Below are positions 284-17,270 of a DNA stretch of 22,833 nucleotides, piece after piece. The stretch's first letter is position 1, and each line of letters starts with the position of its first letter. The DNA comes from Zoopage sp. CT-All (Eukaryota; Zoopagomycota; Zoopagomycetes; Zoopagales; Zoopagaceae), in contig QZWS01000135.1 of the NCBI GenBank assembly GCA_004114245.1, forward strand, positions 1-22,833, written 5' to 3'. Made by a program: the position numbers and the translations under genes. Below the pieces are notes generated by a model. It made no database searches, was not told the DNA's origin, and saw only the letters and a list, made by a program, of their open reading frames with translations.

Positions 284-883
284 ATGAATACACGCCGTAT
301 AATAACTATGATCGTGATCGGTCTGGTTGGTCTTTTTGTCGCCAGTTGCACTCCCAATACGACTCCCACAACCCCAACCCCTGGTTATAAGCAGGTGACA
401 GAAGCCACTCTCAAGAAAGGCGATGCCATCCCTGTCCCAACGGGCGAGGTCATCCTGACTGTTACAGGCAAGGTGGGCACTCATAATGTGGGCGAGGAGA
501 TTCAGATGGATGTGGCCAGCATTGAGGCGCTTGGCCTTGTCGATTACACTCTGATTGACCCCTTTGATATGACCGAGGACACGGACAAGAAGCCTGTGAC
601 CTTTCAGGGACCGCTCATGTCAAACCTGCTGGATCTGTGGCAGGTTCCAGACACGGCCACAACACTGCATACTGTGGCCTTGAATGATTATTCTTCGGAT
701 GTGCCGATCAAAGATCTTCGCACGTATCCTGTGATCTTCGCGTTGAAGAGTGGTGGAGTGTATATGCCAACGTCAGAGCGCGGCCCCGCTATGCTGGTGT
801 ATCCCTACAATGATTTCACCTTCGATCATGATATCTATAACAATTATTGGGTCTGGCAGATTAAAAGCATTGATGTGCGCTAG
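284..883 (+). CDS. Lipoprotein with molybdopterin/pterin-binding (SUOX-like) fold, PruR-like
   Basis: Predicted extracytoplasmic ligand-binding lipoprotein of 199 residues. The start at 284 is chosen because AGGGGA lies about 10 nt upstream and it gives a short basic N-terminus, a hydrophobic stretch and a lipobox VASC with Cys22. An upstream in-frame ATG at 257 would spoil the signal peptide. The mature part matches the oxidoreductase molybdopterin-binding domain pattern: a buried strand region, LLDLWQVP, a YPVIFAL strand, RGPAMLVYPY near the C-terminus and a closing WVWQIKSI. The only cysteine is the lipid anchor, so the Cys that ligates Mo in true sulfite oxidases is absent; a binding or sensor role is likelier than catalysis. 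From family knowledge, Agrobacterium PruR has this fold and binds pterins for a partner signalling protein. Here it sits 14 nt before a histidine kinase gene. The fold assignment is fairly secure; the ligand is inference. Confidence 0.75.
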   Translation: MNTRRIITMIVIGLVGLFVASCTPNTTPTTPTPGYKQVTEATLKKGDAIPVPTGEVILTVTGKVGTHNVGEEIQMDVASIEALGLVDYTLIDPFDMTEDTDKKPVTFQGPLMSNLLDLWQVPDTATTLHTVALNDYSSDVPIKDLRTYPVIFALKSGGVYMPTSERGPAMLVYPYNDFTFDHDIYNNYWVWQIKSIDVR

Positions 884-897
884 GACGTAAAACCGCT

Positions 898-2328
898 ATG
901 AAGTCTTCTTCTCCTGCTTCGGTGTCGCATGATCGTTGGAGAGTGCTGGCCCCAATTGTGATTCCAACGGCTGTGATTGTGGCCTTGATGATTGGTGTGA
1001 CAGCAACGCTGGCACTCCTCATTCATTCCATCAATCTTCAGATCGAATCCGGCACCAAAGTGCTGAGCTACAACCTGTCCGATCAAAGCCGTGTGTTTGT
1101 GCAGCTTCAGCGCGAGTCGCTGAAAATGATTATCGTGCTCATCGACGGTGAGACCGCTCAGGATTACGATGCGATCAAGCTTCAATACGACCTGCTGACG
1201 AGCCGTATCAATTACACCAAGCTCTCCAGTCTGGAAGATCGGAGCATTACGCCTGTCAGCGTGTACGAAAATGCGCAGCAGATTATCAGTCAGTGGAATG
1301 TGTTAGCGCCCAATCTTGATCTGCTTCTCAAGGATCTGGGCAATGAAACGCTGCGGCAAACGGTTGTTGATGAGCTGCACGAATTTGAGGTGCTGGCAAA
1401 CACCACCGAGATCGACTACAGCCAAGGTCGTAATACAACGCTCCAAGCCTTTGCCGATGTCAGCCGCCAGATTCCGCAGACCTTCACCATCTTCACAGTC
1501 ATCTTGGTCACTGTCATGGCCACGGTTTTGATCGGGCTGTACGTTTATATCCGTCAGGTGCAGAGAGCTGAATCGGCACGCCTGTCAAACCAGTTCAAAG
1601 ATCATTTCTTGGCCGTTGTCAGCCATGAACTGCGCACGCCTCTAAATGCCATGATTGGCTTCCTGGGGATCATCAAAATGGGCGGTGGCCTGCCCGAAAA
1701 AACCGCTTATATGGTGGATCGTGTGCGTGACAATGCTGAACGACTGCTGGTGTTGATCAACGACATTCTTGATCTGAGCAAGCTGGAGGCCCAGCGCTTT
1801 GAGATTCACAATGAAGCTGTGGAGATCAAGGATCTGGCGACACGCTGGAAGGCCCAGACCGATGTGCTGGCCTCGCAAAAAGATCTGCGTTTCAGCATCA
1901 ACGTCGATCCGCAGCTTCCCAGCATCCTCTATACCGACTCGGACGCGCTGACGAAAATCGTCGTCAATCTGATGTCGAACGCCTTCAAGTTCACCAAAAA
2001 AGGTGAGGTCAATGTGGCGATGGTGCTGCGCGACCCAACCACCTGGGAGATCAGTGTGTCTGATACAGGTATCGGCATCCCTGAGGACAAACAAAAACTC
2101 GTCTTTGAGAGCTTCCAGCAGGTCGACAGCTCCACACGTCGTTCGTATGGCGGCACAGGCCTCGGCCTGTCCATCGTCAAGAGCCTCGCCACATTAATGA
2201 AAGGCTCCATCACGGTGAAGAGCCAGCCCAATGTGGGCAGCACATTTACCGTATCCCTCCCCTTGCTTAACACGCCAGAGGGCGAGGCCGCTGCTTCTTC
2301 CACACCCGCACTCAGTAAAGGTTCATAG
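898..2328 (+). CDS. Membrane-bound sensor histidine kinase
   Basis: Two-component sensor kinase of 476 residues. TM1 is at about residues 18-42 and TM2 at about 198-218. They enclose some 155 mostly helical, extracytoplasmic residues with no PAS or Cache signature that I recognise. The cytoplasmic part begins straight after TM2, with no clear HAMP. The HisKA H-box is SHELRTP with the phosphorylatable His243. The HATPase_c domain shows the N-box (N361), the G1 box SDTGIGIP (D389) and the G2 box GGTGLGL (418-424), so it should be catalytically intact. It lies between the SUOX-fold lipoprotein (14-nt gap) and a receiver gene (2-nt gap), which indicates one transcript. The simplest reading is that the lipoprotein presents a ligand to the external loop and the kinase phosphorylates the downstream receiver. 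Confidence 0.95.
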   Translation: MKSSSPASVSHDRWRVLAPIVIPTAVIVALMIGVTATLALLIHSINLQIESGTKVLSYNLSDQSRVFVQLQRESLKMIIVLIDGETAQDYDAIKLQYDLLTSRINYTKLSSLEDRSITPVSVYENAQQIISQWNVLAPNLDLLLKDLGNETLRQTVVDELHEFEVLANTTEIDYSQGRNTTLQAFADVSRQIPQTFTIFTVILVTVMATVLIGLYVYIRQVQRAESARLSNQFKDHFLAVVSHELRTPLNAMIGFLGIIKMGGGLPEKTAYMVDRVRDNAERLLVLINDILDLSKLEAQRFEIHNEAVEIKDLATRWKAQTDVLASQKDLRFSINVDPQLPSILYTDSDALTKIVVNLMSNAFKFTKKGEVNVAMVLRDPTTWEISVSDTGIGIPEDKQKLVFESFQQVDSSTRRSYGGTGLGLSIVKSLATLMKGSITVKSQPNVGSTFTVSLPLLNTPEGEAAASSTPALSKGS

Positions 2329-2330
2329 AC

Positions 2331-2759
2331 ATGGTCATTCCACAAAATGCGTTTCAAAACTGGACTGTCGTGGTCGTTGAAGACGATCCCGACAGCCTGA
2401 CGGTTGTCTCAATGCTGCTTGAGATGTACGGGGCCTCCGTGATTACCGCGCGCAACGGTCAGGAGGGCCTGGAGGTCATTCGGCGGCATCGTCCCCGCTT
2501 CGTCGTCAGCGATCTGTCCATGCCGGAGATGAGCGGCTGGGAACTGATCGAAGCCTTGAAGCAGGATGAGCGGCCTGTGGCTGAGATTCCTGTGATTGCG
2601 CTCACCGCCCACGCCATGGATTATGATCGTCGGCGGGCCATTCAAGCGGGATTCCAGAATTTCATTACCAAACCGCTTCAGCCGGAAAAGTTCATTCAGC
2701 AGGTGGTTGGCTTTCTCGCCGTTGATATGCCCGAGCTCAAGGCCCACATCGAGGCCTAG
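2331..2759 (+). CDS. Single-domain response regulator (receiver only)
   Basis: CheY-like receiver of 142 residues with no output domain. The acidic pair D18-D19, phosphoacceptor D61 (in VVSDLSMPEMSG), T92 (in IALTAH) and K114 (in FITKPL) are all present, so phosphorylation chemistry looks complete. It begins 2 nt after the kinase stop and is therefore translationally coupled to it; AAAGG near 2316 may serve as its ribosome site. Without a DNA-binding or enzymatic domain it must act by protein contact, for example on a target encoded elsewhere or in a phosphorelay. A hairpin 24 nt downstream probably closes the operon. Confidence 0.95.
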   Translation: MVIPQNAFQNWTVVVVEDDPDSLTVVSMLLEMYGASVITARNGQEGLEVIRRHRPRFVVSDLSMPEMSGWELIEALKQDERPVAEIPVIALTAHAMDYDRRRAIQAGFQNFITKPLQPEKFIQQVVGFLAVDMPELKAHIEA

Positions 2760-2783: not shown

Positions 2784-2812
2784 GTGTGGGCACGCCATTG
2801 CCGTGCCCACGC
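2784..2812 (+). terminator. Hairpin after the lipoprotein-kinase-receiver operon
   Basis: GTGGGCACG (2786-2794) pairs perfectly with CGTGCCCAC (2802-2810) around a 7-nt loop, and the stem can extend by two more pairs including one G-T. It lies 24 nt after the receiver stop. There is no U-tract, so it may be a weak terminator, an RNA-stabilising stem or a copy of a repeated palindrome. Confidence 0.5.
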
Positions 2813-2912: not shown

Positions 2913-2921
2913 AACGTGCTC

Positions 2922-3734
2922 ATGAGATCACACATCGTGCCTGCCCCCATACCCTTGAGAGAGCATGTGGAATGCATTCGTATTGCAGAGCACAGCAGCA
3001 GTGAGGATCTGGACATCAATGTCTGTTTGAACGGCCTGCCAGGGCTTGTGTTTCAGCATCACAACGGCAGCTCTCCCATCGAAAAGATCACCACGCAATC
3101 GGGCCGCACCACGGGTGCACCGCTCCTTTACGTCTATGGCCAGATGACCGAACCAAGCGTCATGCAGCACAACGGGCCGTTTACCACCATTCAGCTTGTC
3201 CTCAAGCCGCATGCCCTCCACACACTGCTTGGGATCAATGCGGCTGTGATGACTGACGCGCTGGTGGCTCTGAGTGAATTTTCAGGCGATGATCTTACAG
3301 GACCGCTGCTGGAGGCTTCTTGTGAGCAGGATCGTATCGCGCGACTCACAGATTTCCTGCTGAAAAAATATCAGTCAGTGCTCCCGCAAGATCAACTCGT
3401 TGAGGAAAGTTTGCGCCTTATCCACAGCTCCCCTGGCACAATGACGGTCAAATATTTGCTTGATGCCTTGAGCATCTCCGAGCGCCAATTTGAGAAGCGC
3501 TTCATTCAGGTCGTGGGAGTCTCGCCCCTCTTCTATATTCGGGTCAAGCGCTTTAACGCTGCCATGCGCCTGATGAATTCTGGACGCTTTGACACGCTCA
3601 CAGATGTCGCCCACGCCCTCAACTTCTACGATCAATCGCATTTTATTCGCGACATCAAAGCCTTCTCAGGCATCACACCCAAAACATTGGCCCGAAAAGT
3701 TAATGATCTCCACCCCATTTATTCCTATCTGTGA
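2922..3734 (+). CDS. AraC-family transcriptional regulator (DUF6597-type N-terminus)
   Basis: Regulator of about 270 residues. The N-terminal part (PIPLREHVECIRIAEH, then a cupin-like stretch ending in IQLVLKPHALHTLLGI) resembles the DUF6597 sensor domain common in uncharacterised AraC regulators. The C-terminal 100 residues contain two helix-turn-helix units: TVKYLLDALSISERQFEKRF and the second helix pair ending in FYDQSHFIRDIKAFSGITP, a typical AraC signature. ATG at 2922 is preferred, with GGA about 8 nt upstream; an in-frame GTG at 2916 is the alternative. The gene next door (3809) is a dihydrofolate-reductase-family enzyme, a common neighbour of such regulators, but it appears to have its own promoter. 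The inducer is unknown. Confidence 0.9.
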   Translation: MRSHIVPAPIPLREHVECIRIAEHSSSEDLDINVCLNGLPGLVFQHHNGSSPIEKITTQSGRTTGAPLLYVYGQMTEPSVMQHNGPFTTIQLVLKPHALHTLLGINAAVMTDALVALSEFSGDDLTGPLLEASCEQDRIARLTDFLLKKYQSVLPQDQLVEESLRLIHSSPGTMTVKYLLDALSISERQFEKRFIQVVGVSPLFYIRVKRFNAAMRLMNSGRFDTLTDVAHALNFYDQSHFIRDIKAFSGITPKTLARKVNDLHPIYSYL

Positions 3735-3774
3735 GACGACGGGTTTATACAATTCAGGCATGGGAGCGCCGCTT

Positions 3775-3796
3775 TATACTGGTCTGAGATACAGAC
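3775..3796 (+). promoter_or_regulatory. Putative -10 and small inverted repeat before the DHFR-family gene
   Basis: TATACT (3775-3780) has only a weak TTCAGG 16 bp upstream. Immediately after it GTCTG and CAGAC (3782-3786 and 3792-3796) form a 5-bp inverted repeat that would overlap the transcription start. The -10 ends 28 nt before the start codon, as for several genes here. Confidence 0.35.
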
Positions 3797-3808
3797 AAGG
3801 AGAGCACA

Positions 3809-4378
3809 ATGCGCAAAATCTACATGCTGAACCGAATTTCACTGGATGGCTTTTTTGCAAGCGCCGATGACACCTATGACTGGTTCATCCGCGATCCTGC
3901 CGTGGATGCCGCTGCCCATGCCGTTATTGATGCCGATATTCTGCTGCTGGGGCGCATCAGCTACAAACATCTTGAGGACTTCTGGCCACATGCCGCTGAT
4001 GATCCTCACGCTCCTGAAGGTCTCAAAACAATGGCCGCTGAGGTGAATGGCATGACAAAGTGGATGTTTTCCACCACGCGCAAAAATGTCACCTGGGAAA
4101 ACTCTGTTTTGAAGCGCGGTGATCTCATCAATGAGATGAAGACCTTCAAGCAGGGTGATGGCCCTGGGGCGCTCATCCTGGGCAGCGGTACCCTGGTGCA
4201 GCAGTTAAGCAATGAAGGCCTCATTGATGAGTACGTGCTCATCATGACACCTGTTATCCTGGGATCTGGGAAGGCACTGTTTAAAGACGTTGATTGCCTG
4301 TCTCTTACGCTGGTTTCCACGCAGCAGTTTGACTCAGGCAATGCGGTGCTGCACTATACGCGCGACGACTCCAAATAG
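3809..4378 (+). CDS. Dihydrofolate-reductase-family (RibD C-terminal-like) reductase
   Basis: Protein of 189 residues with the RibD_C/DHFR-like fold, which binds NADPH and reduces pterin- or pyrimidine-like substrates. Supporting features are the N-terminal RKIYMLNRISLDGFFA strand-loop, the LLLGRISYK segment, LILGSGTLVQQL (nucleotide-binding glycine loop) and the closing YVLIMTPVILGSGKALF. AAGGAGAG at 3797-3804 gives an excellent ribosome site 4-8 nt before the ATG. Family members of this size are usually stand-alone and of unknown substrate, often annotated YwjB/YyaP-like. It follows an AraC regulator on the same strand. Its closeness to a candidate pterin-sensing operon is suggestive but unproven. 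Confidence 0.9.
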   Translation: MRKIYMLNRISLDGFFASADDTYDWFIRDPAVDAAAHAVIDADILLLGRISYKHLEDFWPHAADDPHAPEGLKTMAAEVNGMTKWMFSTTRKNVTWENSVLKRGDLINEMKTFKQGDGPGALILGSGTLVQQLSNEGLIDEYVLIMTPVILGSGKALFKDVDCLSLTLVSTQQFDSGNAVLHYTRDDSK

Positions 4379-8203: not shown

Positions 8204-9148
8204 ATGAGCGGGTTGAAGGGTTGGACAGCCAAAGACATACCGGATCAGCACGGACAGGTCATCGTTATCACCGGAGCCAACAGCGGCGTGGGCTATGAGA
8301 GCGCTGTGGCGCTGGCGCAGAAGGGCGCGCACGTCATCATGGCCTGCCGCAGTGTGGAGAGAGGAAAGCAGGCGCAGCAGGAGCTTCTTAAGCGTGTTCC
8401 CAGCGCCTCAGTGGAGGTCCGAGTGCTCGATCTGGGCCATCTGGCCTCAGTACGTGCCTTTGCCGAGGCGTTCAATCGCGATTATGACCACCTCAACGTG
8501 CTCATGAACAATGCGGGCATCATGGTCCCGCCCTATGCCAAAACGCCAGATGGCTTCGAATTGCAGTTCGGCACCAATCACCTGGGCCATTTTGCGCTGA
8601 CAGGTCTGCTGCTGCCCACCCTCCTCAAAACACCTCACAGCCGCATCGTCACCGTCAGCAGCGGCGCTGCATTCAGCGCACGAATCAACTTTGAGGATCT
8701 ACAGAGTGAGAAACACTATGATAAAAGAGCAGCCTATGGTCAGAGCAAGCTGGCCAACTTGCTCTTTATGACTGAACTTCAGCGCCAACTGAGCATGGCC
8801 CACGCCGATCTGATCAGTGTGGCCAATCAACCTGGCCTTGTGGCGACGCCCCTGCTCGACAAAAATCCCGGTGACATGATGTACGAATTTATCAATCGTG
8901 TTTTAAAGCCGCTCGCTTCGCAGCCTGCCGACGTGGGTGCGACCTATCAACTGTATGCGGCCACTGCCCCACAGGTGAAGGGCGGCGAATTCTACGGCCC
9001 GCAGCGCATGTTGTGGGGCGAGGTGGTGCGCCGTCCTTTGCAGCGGCGCGCCTCTGATCCCAACGTTGCAGCACGCCTGTGGCAGATCTCCGAGCAGCTC
9101 ACAGGCGTGCGCTACGAGATGCTGAGCCTTGCAAAGGCATATGCCTAG
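8204..9148 (+). CDS. Short-chain dehydrogenase/reductase (retinol-dehydrogenase-like)
   Basis: NAD(P)-dependent oxidoreductase of 314 residues. The Rossmann motif TGANSGVG is at 23-30, followed by ACRSVERG, whose Arg favours NADP(H). Next come the structural LNVLMNNAGIM motif, the NHLGHF segment typical of retinol dehydrogenase/WWOX-like members, VSSGA (151-155) with the catalytic Ser, and Y178-x3-K182. All catalytic residues are present. AAGGAG 8 nt before the ATG is an excellent ribosome site. The gene lies downstream of a TetR-type repressor, with a copy of that repressor's apparent operator in its leader, so it is probably inducible. The substrate, a lipophilic alcohol or ketone by family habit, is a guess. 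Confidence 0.93.
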   Translation: MSGLKGWTAKDIPDQHGQVIVITGANSGVGYESAVALAQKGAHVIMACRSVERGKQAQQELLKRVPSASVEVRVLDLGHLASVRAFAEAFNRDYDHLNVLMNNAGIMVPPYAKTPDGFELQFGTNHLGHFALTGLLLPTLLKTPHSRIVTVSSGAAFSARINFEDLQSEKHYDKRAAYGQSKLANLLFMTELQRQLSMAHADLISVANQPGLVATPLLDKNPGDMMYEFINRVLKPLASQPADVGATYQLYAATAPQVKGGEFYGPQRMLWGEVVRRPLQRRASDPNVAARLWQISEQLTGVRYEMLSLAKAYA

Positions 9149-9275: not shown

Positions 9276-9390
9276 ATCGGACCCCGCAAATCCCTCTCAT
9301 GCCACATGCCCCAGCCCTCTCTCTTATAAATTGAGCGTTAAGATCTCTCACAATTGAGAAACATATGGGAGCAGATAAACGGCTCTCTCG

Positions 9391-9396
9391 TATAAT
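9391..9396 (+). promoter_or_regulatory. Putative -10 box of the first TPR gene
   Basis: A perfect TATAAT, followed by GAA, ends 28 nt before the start codon. The same TATAATGAA string precedes the third TPR gene at 15343. No recognisable -35 is present. Confidence 0.45.
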
Positions 9397-9424
9397 GAAA
9401 TGGCAATCATCAGGGAGGATAGAA

Positions 9425-11944
9425 ATGCGTCTTAAAGCAGGAATTTTACTGATCGTGTTGGGGATTCTGGGCCTGACTGTGGGATCTGTCGTGTTGAAGC
9501 GGCAGCCTGAGGCATCCCCGAATATCAAAGCCATCAATCTCTTCTGGTCAGGCGGCTATGAGGTGGCTTACGACGCCCTCGATGCCTTTAACGCCGTGCT
9601 CAAAGACCATCCTGATAACGCTGAGGCGCTGGCTTATCGTGGGGCCATCAACGAGAGCTGGCTCTATGATGACGAAGCCGCCGCAGCCGATTATGAGCAG
9701 GCCCGTACGCTCGATCCCGTTTCCGGGCTTGTGGATGGGCTGCAAGCTTATAACGACATCGGCTCAGGCGAGGCCGCCGCTATTGAAACGAAAGCCCAGA
9801 TTGCCATCAGCGCCGGAAACCCTATCGGGCTGCTGGTGCTGGGAGATCTGGCAAGCAGCAATAAAGAGTACGATGCGGCAATTGAGCATTACACACAGGC
9901 CATCACCACCGAGAACAAACAGTTCATCAGCTTCACAGCGCGGCTCTATGCTTCCCGTGCCGAGGCGCTACGCCGTCTGAGTCGCTTTGATGAAGCGCTG
10001 GCCGATGTAACCCAGGCCCTGGCCCTCGTGCCGGACCATGAGCGTGCCCTGCTGGTGCAGAACAGCATCGCGTGGAGCACCGGTGATGTTGAGGCCGCCC
10101 TTGTGACAGGCATCAATCGCTTCTGGACACAGGACTATGAAACGGACAGCTCTTTTGACGTTTTCGATGCCATCCTGCAAACACACCCCGACAATGCCCA
10201 GGCGCTAGCCTATCGTGGGGCGATTCAGGCCACCTGGTATTACAATTACGAGGCAGCCGAGGTTGATTACAAGCGTTCCCTTGAGATTGATGCCACATCC
10301 GGGTTGGTGGAGGGCTTGCAGGCGTATGTAGCCCTCACAGAGGATGGCGAGGACTTTGAGGCCAATGTTCAGGCTGCCATTCAAGCTGGAAACCCCATTG
10401 GATCGCTTGTACTGGCACAGAATGCCGAGTACAACAGCGATTCAGAGACGGCGATCAGCCATTACACCCAGGCGATTGCGGATGACAGCGGCCTCTACAC
10501 TGATTTTACGGCCAGACTTTACGCAGGTCGCGCCGAGGCTCTGCGTCTTCTGGCACGCTATGATGACGCGCAGATTGACGTCGCAAAAGCGCTGGAACTT
10601 GACCCTGATAATTATCAGGCCCTGAACACACAGGACATCATGACGTGGAGCACCCGCCCTGCTGAAGAGGTCCTGATCGAAGGTATTACCCTCTTCTGGT
10701 CGGATGAAGATGGAGATCACTACAAAGCCTATCAGGTGTTTGATGCCATCCTGCAAACACACCCCGACAATGCTGATGCCTTCGCCTATCGTGCGTCCTT
10801 TGGCTACGACTACGACAAAAGCATTGACGAGCTTTTTAAGGAGGCGCTGGCGCTGGGGTCTACGCCTGGGCTGGTCGAAGGTTTACAGGCCTACAACGCC
10901 ATCGAGAATGATGAGGACGACACAGCCAAAGAAAAAGCCCAGGTCTCAGCCGATCTCGGCAATCCCATTGGCTCTTTCATGCTGGGGCGTGTGGCGTATC
11001 GCGCTGATGAGTATGAAGACGCCATGGGCTTTTATGATCAGGCGTTGAGTGCTGACAGCAAACTCTATCTAACCTTCACCGCCGAAGTGCATATCGCACG
11101 CGCCAGAGTCTTCCGCCAGCTTGATCGTTATGATGAAAGCATCCCCGACCTGAGCCTGGCTATTGAGTTGGTGCCCACGGATTATCACACAGTCGCGCTA
11201 CGCGGCGATTCATACCGCATGATGAGCCAGTATCCGCGTGCTATCAAGGACTTTAATGCGGCACTGGCCGTAGACCCTGATTACATGTATGCCCTGGGTG
11301 AGCGTGCCGACACCTACTATTTCCTGGACAAGTATGAGCTGGCGCTAGCCGATGTGACGCGTGTGCTGGACGACGATCCCGATGACACCTTCTCGCTCAA
11401 CACACGCGGCAGCATTTACAAGCAGTTAGGCAACTTTGAGGCATCGGTTGCCGACTACACCCGCATCCTTGAAATCGACCCGGAAGATGCCTTTGCCTAT
11501 GGCAACAGAGCGTTGCTGTATCTTGATATGGAAAGCGCCTCCAAAGCCCTGGTCGACATCAATCAGGCCCTGGCGATTCTGCCCGATGATCTTTACCTGC
11601 TCAGCGTTCGTGGAGCGACCTATCGTCAACTGCGGGAGTATCAGAAGGCCCTGGCTGACTACAACCGCGTGCTTGAGATGGCCCCCAACGACAGTTATGC
11701 CCTGGATGGCCGTGGGCGCGTGTATTACTCAATGGGCGAGTTGGACAATGCGCTGGCTGATTTCAATCGTGTGCTTGAAAGAAACTCTGAGCACGTCTCT
11801 GTGCTCCTCAGCCGTGCCCGTGCCTATGACAAGATGGGCAAACGCGCTGAGGCCATTGCGGATGTCAAAGCAGCCCTGGCCCTTGAGCCAGACAACAAAG
11901 ATGCCCAGGAACTGCTCGACGATGTGATGAATCCGCTCAGCTAG
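9425..11944 (+). CDS. Exported/anchored TPR protein A (three large modules plus seven TPRs)
   Basis: 839 residues from ATG 9425, chosen because GGGAGGA ends 5 nt upstream and a signal-anchor (MRLKAGILLIVLGILGL) begins there; an upstream ATG at 9365 would bury it. The passenger is wholly alpha-helical repeats, acidic and outside the cytoplasm. Three modules of about 192 residues begin at residues 37, 230 and 421 with G/A-I-x3-W. Each continues with HPDNAxAxAYR, GLVxGLQAY, GNPIG and RAxxxRxLxRYDE-type TPR helices. From about residue 585 canonical 34-residue TPRs follow, seven in a row to the end (for example RGSIYKQLGNFEASVADYTRILEIDPED). TPR arrays bind proteins; no enzyme motif is seen. It is the first of three tandem paralogues. 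The function is unrecognised. Confidence 0.9.
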   Translation: MRLKAGILLIVLGILGLTVGSVVLKRQPEASPNIKAINLFWSGGYEVAYDALDAFNAVLKDHPDNAEALAYRGAINESWLYDDEAAAADYEQARTLDPVSGLVDGLQAYNDIGSGEAAAIETKAQIAISAGNPIGLLVLGDLASSNKEYDAAIEHYTQAITTENKQFISFTARLYASRAEALRRLSRFDEALADVTQALALVPDHERALLVQNSIAWSTGDVEAALVTGINRFWTQDYETDSSFDVFDAILQTHPDNAQALAYRGAIQATWYYNYEAAEVDYKRSLEIDATSGLVEGLQAYVALTEDGEDFEANVQAAIQAGNPIGSLVLAQNAEYNSDSETAISHYTQAIADDSGLYTDFTARLYAGRAEALRLLARYDDAQIDVAKALELDPDNYQALNTQDIMTWSTRPAEEVLIEGITLFWSDEDGDHYKAYQVFDAILQTHPDNADAFAYRASFGYDYDKSIDELFKEALALGSTPGLVEGLQAYNAIENDEDDTAKEKAQVSADLGNPIGSFMLGRVAYRADEYEDAMGFYDQALSADSKLYLTFTAEVHIARARVFRQLDRYDESIPDLSLAIELVPTDYHTVALRGDSYRMMSQYPRAIKDFNAALAVDPDYMYALGERADTYYFLDKYELALADVTRVLDDDPDDTFSLNTRGSIYKQLGNFEASVADYTRILEIDPEDAFAYGNRALLYLDMESASKALVDINQALAILPDDLYLLSVRGATYRQLREYQKALADYNRVLEMAPNDSYALDGRGRVYYSMGELDNALADFNRVLERNSEHVSVLLSRARAYDKMGKRAEAIADVKAALALEPDNKDAQELLDDVMNPLS
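10166..10197 (+). repeat. 32-nt exact repeat, copy 1 (within TPR protein A)
   Basis: A 32-nt stretch encoding the end of the first helix pair of module 2 (DAILQTHPDNA) recurs without a mismatch 576 nt downstream at 10742-10773 in module 3. Surrounding codons differ much more, so this points to recent conversion or to a younger duplication of modules 2 and 3. Confidence 0.85.
10742..10773 (+). repeat. 32-nt exact repeat, copy 2 (within TPR protein A)
   Basis: Second copy of the repeat at 10166-10197, at the equivalent position of module 3. The 576-nt distance equals 192 codons, the module period. Confidence 0.85.
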
Positions 11945-12000
11945 CAAGAGATGCTGGAAGAGTGTGGGGCATTGTTGTGTCTTGCAATTGGGTTATGGAA

Positions 12001-12020
12001 GGGCGGAGCATGCTCCGCCC
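12001..12020. terminator. 20-bp perfect palindrome after TPR gene A
   Basis: GGGCGGAGCATGCTCCGCCC is fully self-complementary and lies 56 nt after the stop of TPR gene A. As RNA it folds into a stem with a 4-nt tip, and a partly U-rich GUGUUUGUG follows. It is probably a terminator but could be a repeated palindromic element. Confidence 0.5.
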
Positions 12021-12091
12021 GTGTTTGTGATGGCTGTTTCGGGTGTGATCATGAAATTTACCAAATCAACGCGGATATAACATTTAGGTCT

Positions 12092-12119
12092 GTAGGGACA
12101 CGCAAATGCGTGTCCCTAC
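12092..12119. repeat. Interspersed palindrome of the GTAGGG type
   Basis: GTAGGGACACGCA (12092-12104) and TGCGTGTCCCTAC (12107-12119) form a perfect 13-bp inverted repeat with a 2-nt loop. Palindromes beginning TGTAGGG and ending CCCTAC are widely dispersed in Chloroflexota and cyanobacterial intergenic DNA, to my knowledge as REP- or MITE-like elements. It lies 84 nt before the next start, so it could also influence that gene's leader. Confidence 0.6.
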
Positions 12120-12203
12120 CTGATGTATTTGAGAGACGCAGACAATTATCGTGCCCGTGCCATCTGCTACATGATGAAAAGATATTTAGATGGGGAATTA
12201 AAG

Positions 12204-15200
12204 ATGCGCGTTAAATCATGGGGGGTATGGCTGTGCTGCCTGACGTTTCTGTGGACAACAACAGCCTGTGCCCAGGATCAAACCCTTGCCGAAGGGATCA
12301 ATTTGTATTGGTCAGGCCAGTATTCGCGGGAAGCCCTGGATGTTTTTGATGCCATCATTGAGGCAGACCCCGACAATGCCGAGGCCCTGGCCTATCGTGG
12401 CGCGCTGTATCAAATCTGGGAATGCAGCGACGAGGTTGCCACTGACGATTACACACAATCATCGACGCTTGATCCTGACGCTGGGTTGGTTGAAGCCCTT
12501 CAAGCGTCTATTGCACTCATATGCGAGAAGACAGACACCGCCGAGGCAAAAGCCGCCGAGTCTGTTGCCTTTGGAAATCCTCTTGGGCGGATGGTTCAAG
12601 GGGAGTTGGCGCACGATAACAAGGCCTATGACGAGGCTGTCACAGCCTATACGGAGGTCATCACAGCCGACAGCGGCTTCTATACATCCCTGACTGCGCA
12701 TCTGTATGCAGATCGCGCCGAATCGCTGCGTTTCTTAGGACGTTTTGATGAGGCCCTGGCGGATGCCGACAAAGCGCTCACGTTGGATGATGTCAATTAC
12801 CCCGCTACAAGAACGCGTGCCCTCATCGCCTGGAGCACAGGTGATGAAGCTGAGATGGTGACAAAAGCCATTGATATATTCTGGTCTTATGATTATGAGT
12901 ACGACTCAATCGATGTGTTTGAGGCCATCCTGATTGCCCATCCTGATAACGCGCAGGCCCTGGCCTATCATGCGTCCCTTGCGTTTGATTGGTATTATGA
13001 TGAAGATATGACCAATGCTGAGTACGAACGTGCCCTTGCGCTTGGTGCCCCACCAGGGCTTGTCGAAGGTCTGCGCGCCTACGCCGAGTACGATCCAGAG
13101 GTGGGTCGTCCCCTCGCTGAAGCATCTGTTAAAGCAGGACACCCGCTTGGATCGCTCGTGCTGGCAACTTTCGCTATCTACGACCAGGATTTTGAGGCGG
13201 CAGTCACACATTACACGCAGGCCATTGACGATGATAAAGGCCTCTCGCCCGCGTTCACGTTGAAGATCTACACAGGGCGTGCTGATGCCCTGCGAAACCT
13301 GGGGCGTTACGATGAGGCGCTGGCGGATGTCGACACAGTTCTAAAGCTTGACCCTGAAAATGCTATCGGGCTGTACATCCATGATCAGATTGCCTGGATC
13401 ACGGGTGAGCCTGAAGAAGTGCTGGCAGAAGCTATCGATAAGTTCTGGGCTGATGGAGGAGGTTATTCATCGAGAGAGATGTTTAATGCTCTGGCGCAAG
13501 CTTATCCCGATAATGCTGTGGCTCTGGCTTATCGGGGGGCCTTATCCAATTATGCGCCTGAACTGGCTGAACCTGATTATAAAGCGTCATTGGCACTGGC
13601 ACCTAAGACAGGCCTTGTGGAGGGGTTGCAATCCTTCATGATCTATAGGGATGACCCTGAGACTGCCCGCACCAAAGCAGAAGACTCAGCGCAGTATGGC
13701 AATGCCATTGGCTCGTATGTGCTGGGGCGGCTGGCCGCTGGCGATGGAGACAACAAGGCCGCTTACACCTTCTTCTCTCAGGCACTGCTCAACGACGACC
13801 AACATTCGACCCTCTTCACAGCAGAACTCTACAACTATCGCGGCGAGGCTCTGCGCCTGCTGGGGCGTCTTGATGAGTCGCTGGCGGATTTCAGCAAAGC
13901 ACTGGAACTGCGCCCCAATCGCCTTGAGAGCCTGCGCGCACGCATCGATGTTAACTGGCGGCTTGGCAACAAAGAGGCTGCGTTTCAGGATGCGGCGGAT
14001 GCGCTGGCCATCAATCCAACGGATGTCTTTGCCCTGTCTGTGCGCAGCAATATGTATCGTGAGCAGGGCAAATATGCATTGGCGCTCAAGGATATTGATC
14101 TGCTGATCGAAAATCATGCGGAAAATACCAATGCACGGGGCGCACGTGCTCAGATCTTCCTTGAGATGGGCCAACCTGAGAAGGCACTGACAAGCTTGAA
14201 TGAAGCCCTGACACTCAATCCTGACTCAAGCGAGATCCTGCGCAAACGCTCGGACATTTATCGCGATTTGGAACGATATGATGAAGCCATTGCTGATCTC
14301 GATAAAATTCTTGAGTTGAATCCCAACAGCCCCGACAGTGCCTCTTTACGCGCCGCGCGTGCTCAACTTCTCCTTGACAGTGGCGCGAATGAGAAGGCAC
14401 TGGATGATCTCAATGAAGCCCTGACGCTCACCCCTGAGTCGACAGATCTGCTGCGCAAACGCGCGGATATTTATCGCGATCTGGGGCGATACGATGAGGC
14501 CATTGCCGATCTCAACACGATTCTTGCCCTGCACCCCGACGACTATGAAACACAGGCAGTGCGCGGCTATGCCTATCGCGCGATGAATCTTTATATGCAG
14601 GCAGTGAGCGATTTTGATGCTGCCTTGCTCGATCATCCAGATTATAAGTACGCTCTTCAGGGTCGTGGGAGTGTGTATTTATCCCTGCATCAATACGAAC
14701 AGGCCCTCTCAGATGCGGATCAGGTGCTTGAGCAAGATCCAGATGATGTGTTCTCGCTCAATACGCGCGGCAATACCTACGTCTACTTTGAACGTTATGA
14801 CGAGGCGCTGGCCGATTTCAATCATGCGGCAGAGCTTGATCCGAATGAATCCTACGCCCTCGGAAATCGAGCGCTCATGTATATCTGGATGGGCGATTAT
14901 CAAAAGGCTGTTGATGATGCCACTGCAAGTTTAGAGCGCTTTCCTGATGGCCTCTACCTCTTGAGCATTCGTGGCGCGGCGTATCGCAGACTCAGAGAGT
15001 ATGAAAAGGCTCTCTCGGATTTCAATCGTGTGGTTGAGCTAAAGCCTAACGATACCTATGCCCTGTCAGGTCGCGGCGATGTCTATTATGCCATGGGCTA
15101 TATGGACAATGCGCTTCAGGATTATAGTCAGGTGCTCATGCTAACTCCTACAGACACAACCGCGCTCTTGAGTCGGGCACGGGTCTACATTAACACACAC

Positions 15201-15305
15201 CACCTGCTCGAAGCCTATGTGGACATCAAGACTGTACTCGCGCTTGAGCCTGGCAATGAGGACGCGAGAGCGTTGTACGATACGGGACTTGATCCATTCC
15301 GATAG
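12204..15305 (+). CDS. Exported TPR protein B (three large modules plus about thirteen TPRs)
   Basis: 1033 residues from ATG 12204, preceded by GGGGA 7 nt upstream and giving a secretory signal (MRVKSWGVWLCCLTFLW, cleavage after ACA). An in-frame ATG at 12123 would add 27 unrelated residues. Modules of about 190 residues begin at residues 32, 223 and 411 (GINLYW, AIDIFW, AIDKFW) and carry the same GLVEGL and G-N/H-P/A-x-G landmarks as TPR protein A. Roughly thirteen canonical TPRs follow. The last seven match the seven terminal TPRs of protein A one for one (for example DPDDVFSLNTRGN against DPDDTFSLNTRGS). Two TPR pairs at 14142-14530 are a recent tandem duplication. It is predicted to be a secreted or cell-surface scaffold; no catalytic motif or known family name. 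Confidence 0.9.
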   Translation: MRVKSWGVWLCCLTFLWTTTACAQDQTLAEGINLYWSGQYSREALDVFDAIIEADPDNAEALAYRGALYQIWECSDEVATDDYTQSSTLDPDAGLVEALQASIALICEKTDTAEAKAAESVAFGNPLGRMVQGELAHDNKAYDEAVTAYTEVITADSGFYTSLTAHLYADRAESLRFLGRFDEALADADKALTLDDVNYPATRTRALIAWSTGDEAEMVTKAIDIFWSYDYEYDSIDVFEAILIAHPDNAQALAYHASLAFDWYYDEDMTNAEYERALALGAPPGLVEGLRAYAEYDPEVGRPLAEASVKAGHPLGSLVLATFAIYDQDFEAAVTHYTQAIDDDKGLSPAFTLKIYTGRADALRNLGRYDEALADVDTVLKLDPENAIGLYIHDQIAWITGEPEEVLAEAIDKFWADGGGYSSREMFNALAQAYPDNAVALAYRGALSNYAPELAEPDYKASLALAPKTGLVEGLQSFMIYRDDPETARTKAEDSAQYGNAIGSYVLGRLAAGDGDNKAAYTFFSQALLNDDQHSTLFTAELYNYRGEALRLLGRLDESLADFSKALELRPNRLESLRARIDVNWRLGNKEAAFQDAADALAINPTDVFALSVRSNMYREQGKYALALKDIDLLIENHAENTNARGARAQIFLEMGQPEKALTSLNEALTLNPDSSEILRKRSDIYRDLERYDEAIADLDKILELNPNSPDSASLRAARAQLLLDSGANEKALDDLNEALTLTPESTDLLRKRADIYRDLGRYDEAIADLNTILALHPDDYETQAVRGYAYRAMNLYMQAVSDFDAALLDHPDYKYALQGRGSVYLSLHQYEQALSDADQVLEQDPDDVFSLNTRGNTYVYFERYDEALADFNHAAELDPNESYALGNRALMYIWMGDYQKAVDDATASLERFPDGLYLLSIRGAAYRRLREYEKALSDFNRVVELKPNDTYALSGRGDVYYAMGYMDNALQDYSQVLMLTPTDTTALLSRARVYINTHHLLEAYVDIKTVLALEPGNEDARALYDTGLDPFR
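14142..14530 (+). repeat. Tandem duplication of a TPR pair, 213-nt period
   Basis: Codons from 14142 and from 14355 encode aligned two-TPR units of 71 residues with landmarks EKAL-x2-LNEALTL, LRKR-x-DIYRDL and RYDEAIADL in both. The DNA is clearly similar by eye over most of the unit, more so than other TPR pairs in the gene, so this is a recent repeat expansion. Confidence 0.8.
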
Positions 15306-15312
15306 AACACGG

Positions 15313-15334
15313 GGGCGCAATAGGCGCCCTTTTT
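15313..15334 (+). terminator. Rho-independent terminator of TPR gene B
   Basis: GGGCGC (15313-15318) and GCGCCC (15324-15329) form a GC stem with a 5-nt loop followed at once by TTTTT (15330-15334). It begins 8 nt after the stop and is the clearest intrinsic terminator in the window. It means TPR gene C needs its own promoter. Confidence 0.85.
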
Positions 15335-15342
15335 CTTGTGAC

Positions 15343-15348
15343 TATAAT
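15343..15348 (+). promoter_or_regulatory. Putative -10 box of the third TPR gene
   Basis: TATAAT followed by GAA, ending 29 nt before the preferred start codon. It begins only 9 nt after the terminator of the preceding gene, whose hairpin occupies the position where a -35 would be. Confidence 0.5.
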
Positions 15349-15377
15349 GAATATAAATTGATCAGGGGATGATGACT

Positions 15378-17270
15378 GTGCGCTTTAAATTGTGGGGTCT
15401 GATTCTGAGTCTGTGTTGTTTTGGGGGTGTACTTCTGATGCCTGTGGCAGCGCAAGAGTCGCTGCAAGATGGTATTACCTTCTACTGGATGGATCGCGAT
15501 GCCGAGGCCATGGCTGTCTTTGATGATGTCTTAGCGTCCGATCCTGACAACGTAGAGGCCCTGGCCTATCGTGCTGTGGCCTTTCTTGCCTTGAATCAGG
15601 CAGATAAAGCTCAGGAGGACTTTAGCGCAGCCCTGGCCCTTGAGCCGGACTCAGCACTTGTCTATGCGCTGTGGTCTATTGGCTATAACGACTATGGACA
15701 GCGCAATATTGGAGCACTGTACGCCGATGAAGCGCTGGGTGCCGACTCTGATCTTGCCCTTGCTCATCTGGCAATGGGACGCGTGCACATCAATAACAAC
15801 GATTTTGCAGAGGCCTCGCTCTCATTCAGCAAAGCGTTGACTCTGGATTCAGGCGACAATGGGACGCTGACAGCCATTTTGTATGCGTATCGTGGCGAGG
15901 CCAACCGTCTGATCCCCAATTATGAACTGGCACTCAAAGACTTAAATGCCGCCCTGGATATAGAACCTGATCTGGTTCTGGCGCTCGAAAATCGTGGCTC
16001 TCTGTATCACTTTGTGGGCAATTACAGCAAGGCCCTTATTGACCTTAACCGGACGCTGGAGCAGCAACCGCAGAATTTCTTTGCGCTGGCCACGCGCGGC
16101 GATATTTATGTACGTACAGGCCTCTATGATGAGGCTTTTGAAGATCTGAATCAGTCGATTCTGCTCAGCCCCTACTTCGTCTCGCCCTGGGCCAGCCGAG
16201 GCAACCTGTATCGTGTGCTGGGCGAGTATGACAAGGCCCTTGCTGATTTGAATGAGGCCCTCAGGCTACAACCGCAGCACGGCTTTGCGCTGGTCACGCG
16301 CGGGAGTGTGTACCGCATGCTGGGACGCTATGACGAGGCCCTTACCGATTTGAGCGCTGCCTATCAGCAGTCGCCCAACGACGTGTATATCCTCAGCTTT
16401 CGCGGCGATGTGCTCAGCCGCCTGGGGCGCTATGACGAGGCGCTGGCCGATTTGAATCGTGCTTTGGAGTTAAGACCGGATGATCTGTTCAGTCTCACAA
16501 CACGGGGCAATGTCTATCGCCTCACGCAGAAATATGATGAGGCACTTGTTGATTTAAATCATTTTCTCGAACTACAGCCAAATGATGTCTATGCCCTGGC
16601 CCAGCGAGGTGAGGTCCATTCATTTCTTGGACACCCCGATGAGGCGCTAGCGGATTTTGCGCGCGCTTTAGAACTGGACCCTGACAATATTTTCACGCTT
16701 TCAGCCCGCAGCACCTTTTACAGCTTTCGTTTTGACGAAGAAGCAGCAATTGCCGACCTCAGCCATGTGCTTAAGATAGATCCAGATAACTTGAACGCGC
16801 TTGCGGCTCGTCTTGATTTATACAGAAAACAAAACCAGTATGATCTTGCCCTCAAGGATCTTAATTATCTATTTGAGTTAGACCCTGATAATGTGGCCTG
16901 GATCAAGGCGCGTGCGCTTCTTTATCGGGATATGGACGATTACGACAAGGCGCTCACTGACTACAACCTTGCGATGACGCTTGATCCCAACGATTCAACG
17001 TTGCTTCCAGAGCGCGGCTACACTTATTATCTGGCCGAGAATTATGAATTGGCGTTGGAGGATCTCAGCAAATTTCTTGAATCGTCTCCAAACGCCTACC
17101 TGCGCTTTGTACAGCGCGCATTGGTCTATTATGAACTTGAGCGTTATGAAGAGGCGGCAGCAGATCTTCGGACAGCGTTCCGTATCATGCCCGATTTCAA
17201 TTTCCCTCCCGCTTACGAGCTCTACTATCGCACGATGCTGCAACTGCATCGCCAGCAAGAGAGCAAATAA
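15378..17270 (+). CDS. Exported TPR protein C (one module plus about twelve TPRs)
   Basis: About 630 residues. The GTG at 15378 is preferred: AGGGG ends 9 nt upstream, and the resulting MRFKLWG matches the MRxKxWG starts of its paralogue. ATGs at 15369 and 15372 lie too close to the ribosome site but are possible. The signal peptide is cleaved near PVAAQ. One copy of the large module opens at residue 33 (GITFYW, then SDPDNVEALAYR). About twelve canonical TPRs follow directly, several almost consensus (RGDVLSRLGRYDEALADLNRALELRPDD). The C-terminus (PAYELYYRTMLQLHRQQESK) differs from those of A and B. It resembles the simple ancestor, or a reduced copy, of the two larger proteins. The role is unknown; secreted scaffold is inference. 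Confidence 0.9.
   Translation: MRFKLWGLILSLCCFGGVLLMPVAAQESLQDGITFYWMDRDAEAMAVFDDVLASDPDNVEALAYRAVAFLALNQADKAQEDFSAALALEPDSALVYALWSIGYNDYGQRNIGALYADEALGADSDLALAHLAMGRVHINNNDFAEASLSFSKALTLDSGDNGTLTAILYAYRGEANRLIPNYELALKDLNAALDIEPDLVLALENRGSLYHFVGNYSKALIDLNRTLEQQPQNFFALATRGDIYVRTGLYDEAFEDLNQSILLSPYFVSPWASRGNLYRVLGEYDKALADLNEALRLQPQHGFALVTRGSVYRMLGRYDEALTDLSAAYQQSPNDVYILSFRGDVLSRLGRYDEALADLNRALELRPDDLFSLTTRGNVYRLTQKYDEALVDLNHFLELQPNDVYALAQRGEVHSFLGHPDEALADFARALELDPDNIFTLSARSTFYSFRFDEEAAIADLSHVLKIDPDNLNALAARLDLYRKQNQYDLALKDLNYLFELDPDNVAWIKARALLYRDMDDYDKALTDYNLAMTLDPNDSTLLPERGYTYYLAENYELALEDLSKFLESSPNAYLRFVQRALVYYELERYEEAAADLRTAFRIMPDFNFPPAYELYYRTMLQLHRQQESK

Follow-up and report, generated by a model that had tools for sequence, protein, structure and literature searches.

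The contig QZWS01000135.1 of the assembly GCA_004114245.1 (Zoopage sp. CT-All), analysed over its entire length of 22,833 nucleotides (G000:C383; hereafter the window), contains three adjacent forward-strand genes between positions 284 and 2759 that encode a lipoprotein, a sensor histidine kinase and a stand-alone receiver, which we consider, with a probability of roughly 0.7, to constitute a split, lipid-anchored two-component system resembling PruR-DTB. Sequence and structure comparisons identify the lipoprotein as a PruR homologue without the molybdenum-ligating cysteine, the external loop of the kinase is by sequence comparison a homologue of the sensor loops found in PruR-linked kinases of Proteobacteria, and genes for PruR and a kinase are adjacent in several phyla. 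The main text of PMC13259868 describes PruR of Agrobacterium tumefaciens as a periplasmic, pterin-binding protein that controls a membrane signalling protein via the periplasmic part of the latter, and covers both PruR-DcpA and the PruR-DTB systems of Proteobacteria, known from Ruegeria pomeroyi, in which a kinase replaces the cyclic-di-GMP (c-di-GMP) domains.

The lipoprotein gene (284..883) encodes 199 amino acids (aa), beginning with a hydrophobic N-terminus and the lipobox VASC (Cys22), a sequence pattern that indicates export, and has a SUOX/PruR fold at about residues 47-199. The match to PF00174 is sub-threshold (16 bits vs a cut-off of 24); the fold is backed by a profile search and by a structure model, the check proposed by an earlier note on this DNA, whose claim of a molybdopterin-binding-type fold is thus borne out at the level of the fold. 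Among SUOX-type folds the crystal structures of PruR are closest to the lipoprotein in both sequence and structure, nearer than any listed SUOX-family enzyme. Cys22, invariant in all 32 rows, window included, of an alignment (A1) picked from the window and 120 listed homologues, is the sole cysteine of the protein, and a molybdenum-ligating cysteine is therefore impossible, in agreement with the same note. An ordinary molybdenum-oxidoreductase subunit of the SUOX family, lying beside a two-component system by chance, would also account for the weak PF00174 match and for a fold that is common to SUOX enzymes, but its lack of the ligating cysteine, its much greater nearness to PruR and the adjoining kinase in 77 of 80 compared loci make this exceedingly improbable, and the explanation was dropped. 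By pattern, a lipobox was found in 16/17 Chloroflexota, 5/5 cyanobacterial, 2/2 actinobacterial and 9/70 proteobacterial loci; the lipoprotein has one match in the window's own genome.

The kinase gene (898..2328) follows after 14 nucleotides (nt) and encodes 476 aa with HisKA (residues 234-298, E 2e-19) and HATPase_c (347-456, E 1e-29) domains; two hydrophobic segments, at about residues 16-34 and at 198-216, bracket an external loop of about residues 43-197 (1024..1488) and are recognized by hydropathy only. The receiver gene (2331..2759), 2 nt further on, encodes 142 aa with PF00072 at residues 13-125 (E 1e-26) and without an output domain. The open reading frames (ORFs), their positions and spacing, the kinase with two transmembrane segments and the receiver-only regulator all reproduce what had been reported before. 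The description of the loop as domain-less held in part: no Pfam model matches it, yet it is a member of the sensor family found in PruR-linked kinases, with homology to the loops of 66 proteobacterial members, which are taken to be DcpA-type from the review's description (main text of PMC13259868) and their WX7E motif. A fold search with the sensor loop returned nothing at E 0.001. Its likeness to the sensor domain of NarQ, a helical bundle between two transmembrane helices (6xyn, TMt 0.79), is not significant (Foldseek E 0.13), and NarQ itself senses nitrate/nitrite, as the entry titles also state.

Regarding gene pairing, a contig scan yielded 153 relatives; the analysis kept the best 80, mostly Alphaproteobacteria, and in 77/80 of these a kinase gene lies directly downstream of the PruR gene, so that the lipoprotein-kinase pair is conserved across genomes of several phyla in the search that had been suggested earlier. 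The count comprises 73 loci scored by script, the Anaerolineae locus L006, where Pfam recognized a hybrid kinase with HATPase_c and receiver domains and HisKA under its cut-off, and three loci settled by reading ORF lists (L013, L016, L061), where overlong ORF calls had masked the kinase from the script. The exceptions are L009, which has a GGDEF protein, L011, where the kinase is upstream and apart, and L066, whose 238-aa ORF does not match a kinase. A kinase with a fused receiver was scored in 66/80 loci, and a separate receiver after the kinase, as in the window, recurs in L002, L003 (three receiver ORFs in a row) and L102.

Several observations weigh against the assignment, the first being the marker residues. 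In PruR the tryptophan that replaces the molybdenum-ligating cysteine is described as 'mostly conserved' in the main text of PMC13259868, and it is present in 70/70 proteobacterial loci; in the window Phe94 occupies this position, which on our reading of the alignment is the molybdenum-cysteine column of SUOX enzymes. Because phenylalanine stands where tryptophan is expected, we assign the lipoprotein, as judged by sequence, to a divergent subfamily of PruR homologues and do not call it a canonical PruR. Model confidence within the folded domain is lowest at residues 91-100 (block mean 74), which include Phe94, and at 161-170 (70). In the sensor loop, characterized by R65-x3-Q69-x2-R72-E73 and S102-R103, the WX7E motif reads RX7E (R65, E73), although tryptophan is found in 64/66 proteobacterial sensors of an alignment of 91, in which the window is counted among 17 Chloroflexota. 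Together the two replacements may indicate that the ligand or the docking differs.

A PruR-like lipoprotein with a changed ligand (another heterocycle, a breakdown product of the molybdenum cofactor or another redox-active small molecule), driving the kinase by the same docking, is accordingly an alternative, if a rather unlikely one. It gains from the sensor arginine, which is shared by the window, L002, L003, L006, L101, 4/5 cyanobacterial and 2/2 actinobacterial sensors (Chloroflexota sensors have tryptophan in 8/17 and residues other than these two in 5/17), and from Phe94, which does not vary across the 32 rows of A1 and is common in Chloroflexota (12/17, window included; the remainder S, W, W, H and G) and in cyanobacterial loci (5/5), the two actinobacterial loci having Q and L. 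It loses by the retention of Asn134 in the window and 12/17 Chloroflexota (Asp in 5), probably equivalent to PruR Asn102 when counted along the printed alignment, and of Tyr136 in 17/17, and by the 'mostly conserved' status of the PruR tryptophan noted above. The glutamate E73 is kept in 66/66 proteobacterial, 13/17 Chloroflexota, 5/5 cyanobacterial and 2/2 actinobacterial sensors.

The second group of opposing points concerns the receiver and the synthesis of a ligand. Compared with the receiver of the window, those of L003 and L102 show only 22% and 20% identity, so that one conserved receiver is established for L002 only (58%, at the same place), and the L102 sensor is weakly supported, with 14.6 bits in the leave-one-out profile and 9.2 in a smaller profile, under the 10.5 bits of a background ORF. 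This divergence among L002, L003 and L102, together with the three successive receiver ORFs of L003, would suit a receiver that serves another kinase while the window kinase answers to a regulator encoded elsewhere; the 2-nt spacing, the unchanged gene order in L002 and the kinases with fused receivers in 66/80 loci speak for partnership of the two, and we consider separate service improbable. L002 is labelled Chitinophagaceae, yet its PruR clusters with those of Chloroflexota and Cyanobacteria, possibly through a binning error. A pteridine reductase is not known from this DNA: the short-chain dehydrogenase/reductase at 8204-9148 was rejected as a candidate, having by eye TGxxxGxG in place of the TGxxxRxG motif that we take to be typical of PruA-type enzymes, and no search for one was made beyond the window.

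In comparison with PruR-DTB, the window likewise has pruR directly upstream of a membrane kinase whose external domain is related, a kinase output and the glutamate of WX7E; unlike PruR-DTB, its PruR is a lipoprotein, its receiver is a separate gene, phenylalanine and arginine replace the tryptophans of PruR and sensor, and it falls outside the proteobacterial clade. Because two marker residues differ, it is not filed as canonical PruR-DTB; it is nonetheless homologous, and its function is probably alike. With A. tumefaciens PruR-DcpA it shares the PruR fold; there PruR is periplasmic and the output is c-di-GMP turnover. TorT-TorS offers a parallel, in which a separate periplasmic binding protein governs a kinase whose sensor loop is helical, and the fold and ligand of TorT differ.

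In the split PruR-DTB-like system proposed here, the exported, lipid-anchored PruR would bind a small, probably reduced, pterin, and the loaded protein would dock onto the helical sensor loop and thereby toggle the kinase between an autokinase and a phosphatase state. Phosphate would pass from His243 of the kinase to the separate receiver, which would substitute for the kinase-fused receiver of most of the 80 loci and could act by protein contact or through a further relay. The pterin sensing that the earlier note had proposed by analogy with PruR-DcpA is backed, at the level of homology, by PruR fold and sequence, sensor loop and gene pairing, pterin remaining the presumed ligand; its phosphorelay in place of c-di-GMP agrees with the kinase and receiver domains, but as an arrangement had already been reported as PruR-DTB (main text of PMC13259868). 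Its suggestion of an undescribed phylum is partly settled by relatives in Chloroflexota, Cyanobacteria and Actinomycetota; the strings 'chloroflex', 'lipoprotein', 'phyla', 'STAS', 'SpoIIE' and 'Actino' do not occur in that main text, figures excluded.

Samples built around the genome of L003 (G001, titled Chloroflexi bacterium), with a match cut-off of E 1e-10, gave matches in 10/396 genomes of its class and 11/400 of its phylum, which are lower bounds because only 8 candidates were scored for most genomes. With G001 and G351 common to both samples there are 19 distinct genomes, and a sensor-type gene follows the PruR match in 14/19; the other five, in which no such gene is next (G012, G093, G132) or the contig ends right after the match (G030, G443), score lowest (42 to 84 bits). 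The outputs vary: HisKA kinases in G001, G351, G287 and one copy of G324, HisKA in G257, where HATPase is absent from the same ORF, sensor and GAF kinase as two overlapping ORFs in G172, HisKA_3 with a NarL-type regulator in G672, SpoIIE in G714 and the second copy of G324, and STAS in six genomes, by Pfam in G432, G440, G499 and G471 and by close sequence similarity in G492 and G648. Leave-one-out sensor-family scores (STAS 42.2 bits; SpoIIE 32.6 and 38.4; HisKA_3 32.0) place these proteins in the same sensor family. STAS or SpoIIE outputs of PruR systems were not found in the published literature, as far as its accessible text goes.

A midpoint-rooted tree built from a choice of 44 PruR rows sets the 21 proteobacterial rows apart from all others by a single branch (100/98) and places the window within a set of ten (98/90) with L003, L006 and L101 (Chloroflexota), L002 and five cyanobacterial rows; the remaining Chloroflexota rows are placed elsewhere, and the midpoint root leaves the direction of the tree unspecified.

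Further arrangements were observed at individual loci. The PruR lipoprotein gene overlaps by 1 base the gene for a membrane sensor with C-terminal STAS in L121, L122, L123, L124, L128 and L129, which come from six genomes of the phylum sample, and a SpoIIE-phosphatase membrane sensor follows PruR at L101:7205-8824 and L125:5987-7861. The cyanobacterial L009:6405-7595 encodes a sensor with GGDEF after PruR; in Agrobacterium albertimagni (L028:8714-9799), and alike in L035, a receiver with an HD domain follows the PruR-kinase pair, the L028 domain possibly being an HD-GYP with c-di-GMP output. On a Deinococcus grandis plasmid (L130:3893-7256) a PruR-like gene is followed first by a gene for a 240-aa protein without a Pfam match (E 0.001) and next by one for a PAS histidine kinase. 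L107:6775-8667 is a 630-aa ORF with four tandem PruR/PF00174-type domains, and at L110:433-2652 a weak PruR-like ORF is followed 66 nt on by an aldehyde ferredoxin oxidoreductase gene. A tblastn search of a plasmid collection with the lipoprotein matched 439 records, 219 of them Klebsiella, with a query coverage of at least 80% in 3/439.

Regarding the surroundings of the locus, 283 nt are visible upstream of the lipoprotein gene, and 26 nt past the receiver stop a perfect 9-bp inverted repeat with a 7-nt loop and without a T-run was seen by eye (2786..2810, forward strand), which is a possible operon end. It is not in the output of the terminator scan, and promoter and terminator scans yielded no more than chance. 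Pfam assigns the downstream region 2916-4378 to an AraC-type regulator (HTH_18, DUF6597) and a RibD_C (DHFR-like) protein. The AraC-type gene, 156 nt off and beyond the hairpin, with a single relative (L038, E 3e-6), was rejected as a member of the system, and the RibD_C protein (3809-4378) was not joined to it as a pterin-reducing partner because no relative was found among the ORFs of the 100 other loci compared. Successive ORFs of 859, 1060 and 633 aa at 9365-17270 have similar openings and, by eye, resemble TPR-type repeat proteins.

PruR pterin signalling is a recent idea, so far described for Proteobacteria, where a PruR system with kinase output is already known; the anchored, split version appears by sequence to differ from it, and the wider finding of an anchored PruR module whose outputs are swapped is of greater interest. 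Chances are about even that PruR and the helical sensor domain form a plug-in module far wider than proteobacterial PruR-DcpA/DTB, driving kinases and STAS or SpoIIE proteins of partner-switching type, with Chloroflexota on several deep branches and PruR anchored; if so, pterins would be an input to general-stress or sigma-factor-like switches, and the PruR systems described so far would be one derived clade. The natural variants (phenylalanine or tryptophan in PruR, arginine or tryptophan in the sensor) allow testing of which residues set ligand and docking, and with a receiver encoded on its own, phosphotransfer can be assayed easily. Taken together with homologous systems from Chloroflexota, Cyanobacteria and Actinomycetota, in which PruR is anchored and outputs are swapped, PruR signalling would become a general bacterial module.
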